Shown piece after piece: positions 25,902-31,208 of a DNA stretch of 56,083 nt. This DNA comes from Planctomycetota bacterium (lineage in GTDB: Bacteria > Planctomycetota > Planctomycetia > Gemmatales > Gemmataceae). Under the pieces are notes generated by a model. That model ran no database searches. It was not told where the DNA came from and saw only the letters and a list, made by a program, of their open reading frames with translations. The position numbers and the translations under genes are program-made. The stretch is from contig JACPPF010000007.1 of the NCBI GenBank assembly GCA_016191165.1, positions 1 to 56,083 of the forward strand, written 5' to 3'. The first letter of the stretch is position 1, and each line of letters opens with the position of its first letter.

Positions 25902-26510
25902 GTGGTCCTTGCTCATCATCTCATTTTCACGGCTTACGGTTTCTGGCTGCCGAACGATCCGCGCGGCTCATGGTCTGATTTTGTCGGCTCGTGGGATTTG
26001 CTGCGCTATGGCAAAGCCACCAAGACGACGACGCGCCGCTCCGTCGCCGGGGTTCCCCACGACCGGGAACTTCGTGAACAGGCCAAGAGGGCCTTGAAAA
26101 ACCCTCCGGTGCAATTCTCGGACGCCCAGATTCAAGCGGTTGGCCAGGGCATTGCCGAATCGGCTCGTAAGGGCGACCTCAAGATATGGGCGTGTGCCGT
26201 AATGTCCGATCACATTCACCTCGTGGTGGCGCGACATCGATGCCTGGCTGAACAGATCATCAATCTCACGAAGGGAGCGATAACCAGAAAATTGCTGGAC
26301 CTGGAATTGCACCCATTTCAAACGCTCGCTGGCAATCATACCCGCGTGCCCACATGCTGGGCGGCCAAGGGATGGAAGGTATTTCTCGATCGGATCGAGG
26401 ATATCCAGCGGGCGATCGCGTATGTTAACAACAATCCAATCAAGGAAGACCTACCGGCCCAGTTGTGGGATTTTGTCACGCCGTTTGACCCGAATATTGA
26501 AGGCGTTTAG
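25902..26510 (+). CDS. REP-associated tyrosine transposase (RAYT, Y1/IS200-like)
   Basis: 202 residues from GTG 25,902, which follows the AAGGGGG stretch. An out-of-frame ATG at 25,897 gives no protein. The N-terminal block [19 protein letters not shown] is the hallmark of this transposase branch. The two-His metal site is in [13 protein letters not shown] (about 105-117), and [23 protein letters not shown] (about 168-190) is the C-terminal block with the catalytic Tyr in AYVNNNP. It cuts and joins single-stranded hairpin DNA. Its last two codons and stop (GGC GTT TAG) come from the downstream palindrome. The gene looks intact. Confidence 0.9.
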
Positions 26511-26566
26511 CCGCTCGCCTTTGGCGAGCGTTCTACACCGCGCTCGCCAGAGGCGAGCGGCTAAAC
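26505..26566. repeat. Palindromic repeat, GTTTAGCCGC family, copy 5
   Basis: The arms at 26,505-26,530 and 26,541-26,566 are complementary except for one base. It overlaps the transposase stop codon and ends eight bases before the trpB start, so it forms the trpB leader. Confidence 0.88.
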
Positions 26567-26574
26567 GAATAAAA

Positions 26575-27774
26575 ATGTCAGCAATCCCCGATGCCACCGG
26601 CCGCTTCGGCCCCTATGGCGGACGCTATGTTCCTGAAACCCTGATGCACGCGCTGCGACAACTGTCCGAGCACTACGACGCGGCGTGCGCGGATCCGGAA
26701 TTTCAAAAACACCTCGATTACTATTTGCACCATTACGTCGGCCGGCCGTCGCCGCTCTATTTTGCTGAACGGTTGACCAAGTACGCCGGCGGCGCCCGCA
26801 TCTTCCTCAAACGCGAGGACCTCAACCATACCGGCGCCCACAAGATTAACAACTGCATCGGCCAGGCGCTCTTGTGTAAGCGCATGGGCAAACCGAGGAT
26901 CATCGCGGAAACCGGCGCCGGGCAGCATGGTGTCGCCACCGCGACGGCCGCGGCGTTGTTCGGGTTCCAGTGCCAGGTTTACATGGGTGAGGAAGACGTG
27001 CGCCGGCAAAAGCTCAACGTCTTCAAGATGCGCGCCCTCGGAACCGACGTCGTCTCCGTCACCAGCGGCAGCCGAACCCTGCGCGACGCCATCAACGAGG
27101 CCATGCGCGACTGGATGGCGTCGGTCGAGACCACGCACTACATCATCGGCAGCGTCGTCGGCCCACACCCCTTCCCGATGATGGTCCGCGATTTCCAGGC
27201 CGTCATCGGCAAGGAGACCAAACAGCAATGCCACGACCAAATAGGCAGATTGCCTGATGTCGTCGTCGCCTGCGTCGGCGGCGGGTCGAATGCCGCGGGC
27301 ATGTTCCATCCCTTCGTCGGCGATCACGACGTGGAACTCGTCGGCGTCGAAGCCGGCGGCCGCGGAACGAAGGAAGGCGAGCACGCATCCACCTTGAGCC
27401 ACGGCAAGCCCGGCGTCCTCCACGGCTCGATGAGCTACGTCCTGCAAGACAACGACGGCCAAACCGCCAACGTCCACAGCGTCTCCGCAGGCCTCGACTA
27501 CCCCGGCGTCGGCCCCGAGCACAGCTACTGGAAAGACACGAATCGCGTCGTTTATACGCACGTCAACGACGCCGACGCCCTCCAGGCCTTTTCCCTGTGC
27601 AGCAAGCTCGAAGGCATCCTCCCCGCGCTGGAGACCTCGCACGCCATTGTCGAAGCCGTCCGCCTCGCCGCCAGGCGCAGCCATCAGGATGTCGTGGTCG
27701 TGTCCTTCTCGGGCCGGGGCGACAAGGATTGCTTCGAGGTGGCGCGGTTGCTGGGGGAGGAGATTGCGGAATGA
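26575..27774 (+). CDS. trpB: Tryptophan synthase beta chain
   Basis: 399 residues from ATG 26,575 ([21 protein letters not shown]). It joins indole and serine with pyridoxal phosphate. [12 protein letters not shown] and the PLP-lysine block [18 protein letters not shown] (about 82-99) are followed by [19 protein letters not shown], the phosphate-binding [12 protein letters not shown], and [11 protein letters not shown] near the end. An upstream in-frame extension to 26,422 overlaps the transposase and is an artefact. The ribosome binding site is poor (AATAAAA), which may reflect insertion of the repeat just before the start. trpA, normally adjacent, is 2.6 kb downstream beyond a restriction-modification system. 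Confidence 0.97.
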
Positions 27775-27807
27775 ATCGTCCGCAATGCCGAAACCGTCGC
27801 TCCCTTA

Positions 27808-27813
27808 TATAAT
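27808..27813 (+). promoter_or_regulatory. Candidate -10 box for the restriction-modification genes
   Basis: An exact TATAAT lies 47 bp before the methyltransferase ATG, just after trpB. The -35 region is weak (TGCCGA at about 27,786). It suggests the inserted genes have their own promoter rather than depending on trpB. Confidence 0.45.
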
Positions 27814-27859
27814 GGGCGCATGTTCAGGTTTTCTTGTTTTGCATCACCGAGGAATCGCG

Positions 27860-28924
27860 ATGGAAACATTAATCGATTCAGTCCTACCCTCGCGAATTCG
27901 CCGTTACCTTTCATCTGACGATCGCAGTCCACTCTTCTTGGCTGGCGATTCGCTAGAGTTAATGCGATCGTTTCCGACTGCGTGTATTGACTGTTGCATG
28001 ACCAGTCCGCCATACTGGGGCCAACGTTCTTATTCCGACGGCGGGATTGGACTTGAAACTTTTCCCCAAGATTACATCAAACACCTCGTGCAGATTTCTC
28101 GCGAGATCAAGCGTGTGTTGAGGCCAACTGGTTCTTTCTGGCTCAACATTGGCGACGCCTACGACAAGAAATCCCTCCTGGGCCTCCCGTGGAGAATTGC
28201 AATCGCCTTGATGGACCAGCAAGGGTGGATCCTCCGGAACAGCGTCGTCTGGAACAAGGTGAAGGGAGGGCTAGATAACTCCAAAGACAAACTGCGAAAT
28301 GTTCATGAGCCTGTTTTTCATTTCGTCGCATCCGGCGACTATTATTACGATGTCGATGCTATCCGAAATAAGCCCGGCCAAACTAAAATCGTGAATGGTT
28401 CCGTGGTTTCGGCAACGGGAGTGTCAGGTGTTCGCTACCGTCGTCAGATTGAACTATCTACGGCCTTGACGGACGCAGAAAAGGCGACGGCTTTCCGCGC
28501 CTTGGATGAGATCTTGACTGAAGTTCGCGCGGGGAACTTGACGGATTTTCGAATGATTATCCGGGGCCAACAGCGCGTTACACATTCGGATTCGGACAGG
28601 GTTTCTGGACGGGCGCGTGAGATTTCTGAAAAAGGCTTCTACTTCCTAAAATACGACCCGAACGGAAGCAAACCGAGCGATGTATGGGATATCCTTCCCG
28701 AGGACACGCAAAAACGCAGGTTGCATTTCGCCCCCTATCCAGAAGATTTGTGTAAAATTCCCATTCTTGCAACCTGTCCGGAAAATGGCATCGTTCTCGA
28801 TCCGTTTGCCGGCACGGGTACGACAAATTTGGCGGCATTCCACCTCGGCAGAAAATCCGTTGGAATCGATATTTCAAAGGAGTATTTGCTTGCCGCGCGG
28901 GAAAGGTGCAGGCTGCTACTATGA
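27860..28924 (+). CDS. Type II DNA methyltransferase (SPPY motif; N4-cytosine/N6-adenine type)
   Basis: 354 residues from ATG 27,860, with GAGGAA upstream. The catalytic motif IV is MTSPPYWGQRS (47-57); SPPY favours N4-methylcytosine but does not prove it. LRPTGSFWLNIGDAYD follows, and motif I DPFAGTGTT with VGIDIS is near the C-terminus (about 314-336), so the motifs are in the permuted beta-type order. A central region (about 170-250) is the likely target recognition domain. The gene overlaps the next by four bases (ATGA). Base use is visibly AT-richer and less third-position GC-biased than trpB, a sign of horizontal transfer. It should protect the host from the adjoining nuclease. Confidence 0.93.
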   Translation: METLIDSVLPSRIRRYLSSDDRSPLFLAGDSLELMRSFPTACIDCCMTSPPYWGQRSYSDGGIGLETFPQDYIKHLVQISREIKRVLRPTGSFWLNIGDAYDKKSLLGLPWRIAIALMDQQGWILRNSVVWNKVKGGLDNSKDKLRNVHEPVFHFVASGDYYYDVDAIRNKPGQTKIVNGSVVSATGVSGVRYRRQIELSTALTDAEKATAFRALDEILTEVRAGNLTDFRMIIRGQQRVTHSDSDRVSGRAREISEKGFYFLKYDPNGSKPSDVWDILPEDTQKRRLHFAPYPEDLCKIPILATCPENGIVLDPFAGTGTTNLAAFHLGRKSVGIDISKEYLLAARERCRLLL

Positions 28925-29802
28925 CCAAAGTTGCTGAACTTTACGGATTACCCACGCACCAGCCGGCGGATTGGAAAACCATTGCCGAGTCACAGCAATG
29001 CCCGTTTCTCGGCCGCAAATGTTTGAAAAATCGCAAAAGCGAACCGGAATTCACGATCGGCACCTGTACGATGACCTACGGCAAGGCTTCGCACCCTACG
29101 ATGATTTGCCCTTATCGTTTGCTGGAGCGGAGTCAGATTTTTCTCGATTGCATCCATTTGCTCGCCCTTCACGAACCAGGCAACGAGCTTCGTATTATCG
29201 CGGAACTCAATGTCCCGGGGGGAAGCGTTGACTTTTGCCTGATTTCAGTTCGGGACAAGAAACCGTGCGATTTCGTTGGCATCGAACTACAAACTCTCGA
29301 CACGACCGGAACCGTTTGGCCCGAGCGGCAACGATTTCTCAAGGAGCACGGCGTTTCCGTGAAAGGCAAGCACACTCGGTCTGCCAAGCCTTTCGGAATG
29401 AACTGGAAAATGACTGCCAAAACGATCCTGATCCAACTCAACCACAAGATTGAGACCTTCGAACATCTGAGCAAGCGACTTGTACTCGTGCTCCAAGACC
29501 GCCTGCTCGGTTACATGCAAACCGAGTTTTCGTTCGGCCATATCAAGGGTTCGCGCGCCGGCGATCCAATGCATTTTCATTCCTACGAGTTGCACCGAGA
29601 ATCAGCGGCGTTTAAGCTGCAACTCAAGGAGAGGTTGAGCACCGACGCCGCCGGCATCGCGGCATGTCTGGGCCTTCAGGTAAACGCAAGGGTCGAACTA
29701 GCGACGATATTCGCGCAGATTGAAGCGAAGTTGCCTCAGAGTACGTTGCTTACAGTTCAAGGAGGCGCCATTCCTATTCCCCCAAACGAGGCCGAGTCTT
29801 AA
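28921..29802 (+). CDS. NotI-family type II restriction endonuclease
   Basis: 293 residues; ATG 28,921 overlaps the methyltransferase stop, so translation is probably coupled. Four cysteines, CPF (27), C34, TCTM (49) and CPYR (63), match the Cys4 iron-binding fold known for NotI. The nuclease centre is VDFCLISVRD (103-112) with IELQTLDTTG (121-130); Asp104, Glu122 and Gln124 fit the D...ExQ variant of the PD-(D/E)XK site in that family. The rest is helical with basic patches. Together with the preceding gene it forms a complete two-gene type II system. Its recognition site cannot be read from the sequence; a GC-rich octamer would be the family expectation. Confidence 0.85.
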   Translation: MTKVAELYGLPTHQPADWKTIAESQQCPFLGRKCLKNRKSEPEFTIGTCTMTYGKASHPTMICPYRLLERSQIFLDCIHLLALHEPGNELRIIAELNVPGGSVDFCLISVRDKKPCDFVGIELQTLDTTGTVWPERQRFLKEHGVSVKGKHTRSAKPFGMNWKMTAKTILIQLNHKIETFEHLSKRLVLVLQDRLLGYMQTEFSFGHIKGSRAGDPMHFHSYELHRESAAFKLQLKERLSTDAAGIAACLGLQVNARVELATIFAQIEAKLPQSTLLTVQGGAIPIPPNEAES

Positions 29803-29875
29803 ACATTTACCCGCAGGATCGGCTAGAATACTACCCACCGATCTCCCCTAGCGTGTGTCAGCGATGGAGCCTCCC

Positions 29876-30240
29876 ATGACCCAAATCACAATTCACGCCC
29901 AGGTAATGGACGAACATTTGCAACATGAAAGCAATCTGGCCGAATTCGAAGGTCAGCGCGTCCTCGCTACGCTCACCGTGGCGCCGAACGGCCGACCCGC
30001 GACTTCGCCAGGGAGGAGCGCATTAGCCACATTCGGGAATTGGTTCTTGTTTGTCCATTTGGGAACTCGAAGGGCTTGCTCTACGCATCGAATATTTCGG
30101 CGGCAAGCGAGGCCGAGAAGAACTGCGCCGCAGAAATCTGCCTGGCTACCAAATGCTCAATCGTTGTGCGTTGGCGGAAAAGCCGACTGGTTTCCTGGTC
30201 GTCGAATTCCGGTTGCAAGTTGCCACCAAGCTGATTCACT
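29876..30240 (+). pseudogene. Degraded open reading frames between the endonuclease gene and trpA
   Basis: The 581-bp gap 29,803-30,383 has no intact gene that I can defend. ATG 29,876 opens MTQITIHAQVMDEHLQHES and FEGQRVLATLTV, which vaguely resembles a small antitoxin-like protein. The protein-like text then moves to a second frame (RDFAREERISHIRELVLV at about 30,000) and a third (WELEGLALRIEYFGGKRG, LPGYQMLNRCALAEKP at 30,055-30,170). This is the look of one gene broken by frameshifts, perhaps debris from the insertion of the restriction system. No family is assigned. Confidence 0.35.
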
Positions 30241-30383
30241 TGAAACCGTTGGCCGGCGCGCGGAAGCCGCGTCTACGTTTGTTGCCGGCCCAATCGCGGA
30301 CTTTTGGCGCAAGCCTTGGCCCGCTTTTTTATGCGCGTCGGATTGCCCGGGGACATACCAACGTTCTGAAGACAAGAAACACC

Positions 30384-31208
30384 ATGAACCCCATCGACTC
30401 CCTCTTCACCCGCCTGAAAACCGAACGCAAGAAGGCGTTCATCCCCTTCATCACGGCCGGCGATCCCGACCTGGAGACGACTGCAAGGTTGGTGCGCGAA
30501 TGCGCCCTTCGTGGCGCGTCGCTGATCGAGATCGGGTTTCCCTACAGCGATCCGATTGCCGATGGCAGCGTCATCCAGGCGTCGTATACGCGGGCGCTTG
30601 GCAAGGGATTGAGCGTGGATGCGATCTTCAGTGCCGTGCGAGCGCTCACCCTCACCCCCGGCCCCTCTCCCGGGGGGAGAGGGGAGGCGGTGCCTTTGGT
30701 GGCAATGGTCTCCTACAGCCTCGTTCACCATCGTGGGCCGGAGAGGTTTGTTATTGATGCGAAGGCGAACGGGTTCGCCGGCGCCATCGTGCCTGATCTG
30801 CCCGTCGATGAAGCCGAAACGCTGGCGAAAATCGCGGCAGCGCATGACTTCAAGCTCATCTTGCTCGTGACGCCCACGACGCCGCGCGAACGCGCCACGC
30901 GGATCGCCCGGCTTTCGACGGGGTTCTTGTATTGCGTCAGTGTTGTCGGCATCACCGGGGAGCGTTCCCAACTGCCGCCCGATTTGCTCGAACAATTGAG
31001 CTGGCTGCGAACCCAAACCGAACTCCCCCTGTGCGTCGGCTTCGGCATCTCGACGCCGGAGCATGTGCGGATGCTGCGTGATTCGGCTGACGGCGTCATC
31101 GTCGGCAGCGCCCTGGTGCGCAAGCTGGAAGCCGCGAAGCCTGTCAGCGAAGTCGTGACCGACGTTGGCGACCTGGTTCAGCAACTTGTTGGGGCCTTGC
31201 ACGGTTGA
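30384..31208 (+). CDS. trpA: Tryptophan synthase alpha chain with in-frame repeat insertion
   Basis: 274 residues from ATG 30,384. It cleaves indole-3-glycerol phosphate to indole for the beta chain. The catalytic Glu49 is in ASLIEIGFPYSDPIADG (45-61) and Asp60 follows at the family's exact position. YCVSVVGITGERS is the flexible loop, and VGFGIST and GVIVGSALV bind phosphate. Residues about 88-103 (TLTPGPSPGGRGEAV) replace the short turn before the strand PLVAMVSYS and are encoded by a palindromic repeat. This surface turn is remote from Glu49 and Asp60 in sequence, so activity is likely retained. The start has a weak ribosome binding site (GAAGACAAG). Confidence 0.95.
   Translation: MNPIDSLFTRLKTERKKAFIPFITAGDPDLETTARLVRECALRGASLIEIGFPYSDPIADGSVIQASYTRALGKGLSVDAIFSAVRALTLTPGPSPGGRGEAVPLVAMVSYSLVHHRGPERFVIDAKANGFAGAIVPDLPVDEAETLAKIAAAHDFKLILLVTPTTPRERATRIARLSTGFLYCVSVVGITGERSQLPPDLLEQLSWLRTQTELPLCVGFGISTPEHVRMLRDSADGVIVGSALVRKLEAAKPVSEVVTDVGDLVQQLVGALHG
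30645..30688. repeat. Protein-coding palindromic repeat, copy in trpA
   Basis: CTCACCCTCACCCCCGG runs into CCCCTCTCCCGGGGGGAGA and GGGGAGG. The CCCCTCTCC arm pairs with GGAGAGGGG. It is 44 bases long or slightly less and keeps the trpA frame. Confidence 0.85.

Follow-up and report, generated by a model that had tools for sequence, protein, structure and literature searches.

NotI binds iron at its four-cysteine site, and the D, E and Q of its PD-(D/E)xQ site are catalytic. Genes lodged between trpB and trpA have also been described. In Burkholderia cenocepacia an orphan methyltransferase with the motif GTWWAC, BCAM0992, is situated there according to the accessible part of PMC7364216, and the accessible part of PMC2395257 records unknown genes in the same gap in a Sargasso Sea set, in Flavobacterium and in Burkholderia. 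We analysed a stretch of planctomycete DNA of 56,083 nucleotides (the window; its genome is denoted G000 and the genus set comprises seven genomes, G000–G006), in which the trpB stop and the trpA start are separated by 2609 bp. An earlier note had placed a NotI-family restriction-modification (R-M) pair in this gap of 2.6 kb. The pair is confirmed, and it is composed of an intact methyltransferase gene (M) and an intact endonuclease gene (R) which overlap. Features of the interval and its borders are as follows.

26575–27774, + strand: trpB, tryptophan synthase beta chain, left border of the interval (Pfam PALP, 1.5e-37)
27808–27827, + strand: TATAAT (27808–27813) and the stretch following it; 19-mer at 27809–27827
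27860–28924, + strand: M, beta-order DNA aminomethyltransferase, 354 aa (Pfam N6_N4_Mtase, 4e-46)
28921 (or 28906)–29802, + strand: R, NotI-fold type II endonuclease, 293 aa from ATG (298 aa from GTG), assigned from conserved residues, the AlphaFold2 model, Foldseek and VIA-align
29876–30019, + strand: X', start of gene X, cut off after about 45–52 codons (60% identical to residues 1–52 of X in G002, E 5e-13)
30057–30366, + strand: Y', residues ~64–166 of gene Y, with a frameshift near 30289–30338 (matches in two frames, E 1.8e-29 and 4.9e-7)
30384–31208, + strand: trpA, tryptophan synthase alpha chain, right border (Pfam Trp_syntA, 1.4e-72; TIGR00262, 1.1e-71)

The trpB gene of the window is 87–91% identical to trpB of six genomes of the same genus. 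Between fpg and trpB, the window carries a Y1 transposase of the REP-associated kind (25902–26510; Pfam Y1_Tnp 5e-5; NCBIfam REP_Tyr_transpos 2e-12, below its cut-off), followed before trpB by a palindrome (26502–26565), whereas the fpg–trpB gap is only about 55–60 bp long in G004 and G006. At the other border, trpA carries a GC-rich in-frame insert, TLTPGPSPGGRGEA (~ 30646–30690), which looks like a dispersed repeat tolerated inside a coding gene; a similar insert is present in trpA of G006, and none in trpA of G002 or G004.

In M, the motif TSPPYW (residues 48–53) is followed by DPFAGTGT (314–321), and this order, with PPY before FxGxG, is the beta order. Both motifs are kept in all 13 aligned M sequences. 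As a rule, TSPPYW accompanies N4-cytosine methylation. Relatives of M in the PDB include the DNA cytosine-N4 methyltransferase 8s9n and M.PvuII (1boo), and from the motif and these relatives M is predicted to modify N4 of cytosine. A GAGG is located a few bases upstream of the M ATG. Further upstream, the 19-mer ATAATGGGCGCATGTTCAG is identical in front of M in G004, and among 168 loci it occurs nowhere except ahead of M in G000 and in G004 (five overlapping loci). The segment 27808–27827 is therefore listed as a probable promoter or control element of M. The earlier note had credited the pair with its own TATAAT; the hexamer is present, although a scan with consensus promoters called no promoter at 27808–27813.

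The reading frame of R overlaps that of M by an ATGA at 28921, or by 19 nt if the listed start, GTG at 28906, is used. We favour the ATG, because the block conserved among relatives begins at MTKVAELYG, to which MSKV, MNRV and similar starts correspond in the relatives. The 4-nt overlap is listed also for three other loci (L033, L040, L044). At the sequence level, R matches Pfam NotI (PF12183) with E 0.00098 and 19 bits, below the 22-bit cut-off, and PADLOC REase_II with 6.7e-7; a phmmer search with the R sequence gave no NotI match. The Pfam NotI model matches 20 of the 21 R relatives at E ≤ 0.01 (best 9.3e-9), and when a profile of the 21 was compared with the PDB the sole match was NotI (E 0.13). 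This profile alignment covers the four-cysteine region of NotI and, in a weak second stretch, pairs NotI LEIQTMD with IELQTLD of R. The AlphaFold2 model of R (mean pLDDT 84.4, pTM 0.86) matches NotI 3c25 in Foldseek with E 8.9e-8, and VIA-align gives Z 17.4 to 3c25 (238 residues, rmsd 3.4) and Z 16.1 to 3bvq, while the next entry that is not NotI has Z 6.2. From the profile of its relatives and the matches of the model, R is therefore filed under the NotI fold family of endonucleases. In the 298-aa numbering, C32, C39, C54 and C68, as well as D109, E127 and Q129 of the D...E-x-Q site, are invariant in all 21 aligned sequences, and the four cysteines are a putative metal site.

GC content is about 0.51 in the interval and about 0.60–0.63 in flanking windows. 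Different base use, also claimed before, holds clearly for M, whose GC3 is 0.55 (z −2.55) and whose codon score (z −2.49) is undercut by 2 of 183 reference ORFs; in R it is only mildly atypical (GC3 z −1.73; codon z −1.40, with 21/183 reference ORFs lower). Values of GC3 as low as those of the window are found in M and R of G004 (0.58 and 0.63). The low GC marks the DNA as not fully host-like and does not by itself indicate a recent arrival.

The 581 bases after R (29803–30383), which the earlier note took for debris, do hold decayed genes, but they are not the product of random decay: they are the remains of one specific pair, X and Y. In G002 this pair is intact between trpB and trpA (X 946–1266, Y 1259–1759, trpA from 1996), and in G004 it is intact directly downstream of trpB. 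G006 has just the start of X, upstream of trpA, fused to a different end and with a different partner. Relatives of Y are also found at other loci in the genus; 6/7 genomes show a match, several of them more than one. Neither X nor Y matches a Pfam family at E ≤ 1. Since the remnant is the pair that is intact in the same gap of G002, the gap was already occupied before M–R. Within 29855–31208, the frame of X' is open as far as 30757, past the trpA start, and that of Y' from 30051 into trpA; translation of the remnants could touch trpA expression.

To see the junction across the family, 95 genomes were surveyed, with trpB found in 86, trpA in 87 and both in 82. The two genes lie within 250 bp of each other in 32/82 genomes, and 11 genomes (the window included) have 0.25–10 kb between them. 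In 5 the distance on a shared contig is greater, and 34 have the genes on separate contigs, a number that will include assembly breaks. The tight trpB–trpA junction that the earlier note took as its premise thus fails in this family, where the interval is a loose, gene-collecting gap and not a tight operon junction, and trpB and trpA are often uncoupled. Gaps of 0.25–10 kb contain a zeta-toxin-like kinase (G023), an HTH_17 protein (G069), a CN_hydrolase (G052), an MshEN protein (G051) and DMT_YdcZ (G013), and the gap of the window is one among many. In G001, G003 and G005 (loci L077, L074 and L075) the pair seems really split, because trpA is located well inside contigs other than that of trpB. 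The interval was also considered as a defence island; weak PADLOC matches in 2 of 9 cargo and neighbour proteins and a zeta-toxin Pfam match in G023 were not enough to accept it.

A scan of genome contigs disclosed 21 loci with a relative of R, distributed over Planctomycetota, Myxococcota, Acidobacteriota, Pseudomonadota, Bacteroidota, Bacillota, Chloroflexota, Armatimonadota and other phyla. M adjoins R in 19 of them, in most with an overlap or a short gap. Among 72,556 plasmid records in PLSDB, 8 match R; the plasmid relatives are 52–54% identical and annotated as "NotI family restriction endonuclease", and a "site-specific DNA-methyltransferase" adjoins R in both of the plasmid regions read (n = 2). 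No match was found in 50,697 phage records, and 2 loci match in IMG/VR. Within the family, R is present in 5/95 genomes (G000, G004, G048, G051 and G074). The same trpB–M–R–trpA order with host-like codons throughout the family, which the earlier note had named as the sign of an old stable arrangement, was accordingly not seen. In another genus, G048 (L080) and G051 (L081) have M–R in one shared neighbourhood; M of G048 is close and its R is strongly diverged. M–R is only 4 kb from trpA in G048, a proximity we set aside as coincidence, as the same neighbourhood in G051 has trpA ~ 550 kb away.

The recognition site was sought by word avoidance in samples of 356 kb (G000), 206 kb (G004) and 417 kb (G006). 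Among 4-, 6- and 8-base palindromes, none is low in G000 and G004 yet normal in G006. The lowest were TTCGAA in G000 and GAGCTC in G004, and many palindromes are low in all three genomes; none was accepted as a candidate. For the sequence GCGGCCGC, the cut site by which the NotI family was judged, the G000 sample shows no clear underuse (28 occurrences against an expected 29.8). For the plasmid pair, no site motif is given in the accessible parts of PMC9122589 and PMC8259958, which concern Acinetobacter sp. NEB 394.

The same unit is carried by G004, a groundwater planctomycete MAG of the genus in which loci L032 and L076 and contig C294 represent one same stretch. There, the promoter–M–R unit is placed directly before trpA, with the R stop 13 bases before the trpA start, and a gene with leucine-rich repeats (LRR) precedes M. 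The trpB gene of G004 lies on a separate contig, where X, Y and two LRR genes come after it and reach the end of that contig; we infer that the two contigs are neighbours joined through the LRR genes. M and R are 86% identical between G000 and G004, and the two genomes are paired in trees of M (support 100/99) and R (100/100). Divergence at fourfold sites between them, expressed as a fraction of saturation, is 0.89 for M and 0.75 for R, compared with 0.68–0.93 for 11 other gene pairs. These 11 come from the sampled stretches of both genomes and were counted after removal of pairs with fewer than 60 fourfold sites, below 60% identity, with fewer than 100 aligned residues or in an unlikely frame. 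Because the divergence of M and R falls within the range of the 11, the age of the unit in the genus is about that of the G000/G004 split, whether through descent or through two entries around then. Raw pS values (M 0.74 and R 0.64, against 0.50–0.59 in four host genes) had at first looked like a sign of independent acquisition; this argument was dropped, as the saturation-scaled values are within the 11-pair range.

R is absent from G001, G002, G003, G005 and G006 (5/7 genomes of the genus), and M–R is found on different sides of X–Y: G000 has it to the left of the pair, and G004 has it beside trpA. A tree built from the joined trpB and trpA sequences groups G000 with G006 (85/94) and G004 with G001 (95/98), with several forks left open. 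For the unit to have entered just once, it must have been lost several times and rearranged, because the sides of X–Y differ and the nearest relatives, G006 and G001, are without R. Direct repeats of at least 10 nt bracketing M–R, i.e. a target duplication, were not found in G000 or G004.

The locus is, in our assessment, probably an ordinary type II R-M unit (27808–29802), long resident in a loose, gene-collecting trpB–trpA interval. The unit is compact: a probable promoter element is followed by M, probably an N4-cytosine methyltransferase, and by R, an endonuclease of NotI fold whose translation is coupled to that of M. It belongs to a widespread subfamily that is spread across many phyla and also occurs on plasmids. 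Judging from its family, M would mark a site in host DNA, and R, a predicted nuclease of the PD-(D/E)xQ type whose four cysteines would form a metal site, would cut unmarked incoming DNA at the site of M. M would be made first, from its own promoter, with R following through translational coupling. The unit probably entered the interval at or before the G000/G004 split, presumably once, and would afterwards have been kept in some lineages of the genus, lost in others and shuffled against X–Y. In G004, trpA may be read through from the M–R unit, given the 13 bp between R and trpA; in the window, such read-through is less sure, given the 581-base remnant between R and trpA.

Closely related M–R units may instead have entered the interval twice because it is a favoured landing place, once to the left of X–Y (G000) and once beside trpA (G004). 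The different junctions relative to X–Y, the absence of R from G006 and G001 and the presence of other cargo in the interval elsewhere (the zeta-toxin-like kinase, DMT_YdcZ and CN_hydrolase) agree with this. We nevertheless regard it as rather unlikely, as the M and R of each genome have those of the other as their closest relatives at full support, M and R have diverged in line with other genes, the upstream 19-mer is identical, and no target duplication surrounds the unit. The reading of the earlier note, in which a once tight trpBA operon of this genome was split by a recent capture, would explain the low GC and the atypical codons of M, and trpB–trpA gaps of 149 and 203 bp do occur in G010 and G018, genomes of other genera. 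G004 already largely refutes it, and we consider it very improbable: this genus relative has the same unit at a divergence like that of the other genes, X–Y was in the gap beforehand, and in 50/82 family genomes trpB and trpA are separated by over 250 bp or sit on separate contigs, assembly breaks included.

Long residence of a working unit has also to be set against the view that R no longer works as a restriction enzyme and M is a solitary regulator. BCAM0992, a regulatory orphan methyltransferase between trpB and trpA in the accessible part of PMC7364216, is a precedent for that view, which we find quite improbable, since R is full length, has every residue invariant in its relatives and is still under amino-acid constraint (dN 0.091 vs dS 1.43). 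A broader proposition is that DNA-methylation genes of unrelated bacteria have repeatedly settled at the trpB–trpA junction, because a system expressed together with trpA, or read through into it, becomes tied to the supply of tryptophan and is costly to lose. It builds on the orphan methyltransferase in Burkholderia and on the NotI-type R-M at two different junctions in this genus, and we consider it improbable.

Among known systems, R is comparable in fold to NotI (3bvq, 3c25; PF12183), with which it shares 238 aligned residues (Z 17.4), a cysteine-rich start and the E-x-Q-T-x-D stretch. It differs from NotI in being 17% identical and ~ 85 residues shorter than the 383-residue NotI chain, and in a Pfam score below the curated cut-off. 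The "NotI family" pairs of Acinetobacter pBspH9 and Klebsiella pTK421_3 are alike in the order M then R, in the short overlap and in an R that is 52–54% identical, but they are plasmid-borne among toxin-antitoxin genes, whereas the window pair is located between trp genes. BCAM0992 is similar in being a DNA methyltransferase in the same gene gap; in the accessible part of PMC7364216 it is an orphan with no endonuclease, while the window has both M and R. The cases in PMC2395257 share foreign genes in the trpB–trpA gap, which the accessible part of that paper does not describe as R-M genes. An R-M pair between trpB and trpA, and the combination of such a pair with its double arrangement in one genus, were not found in the open literature searched, mostly at title level. 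Both this type of system and this type of location were already known, the latter from BCAM0992 as presented in the accessible part of PMC7364216. Compared with these, the locus offers a clear case of an R-M unit lodged for long beside a biosynthetic gene, with no visible mobile element, and should transcription from the R-M promoter run on into trpA, for which the 13-bp spacing in G004 speaks, the loss of an R-M system would be made difficult by simple means.
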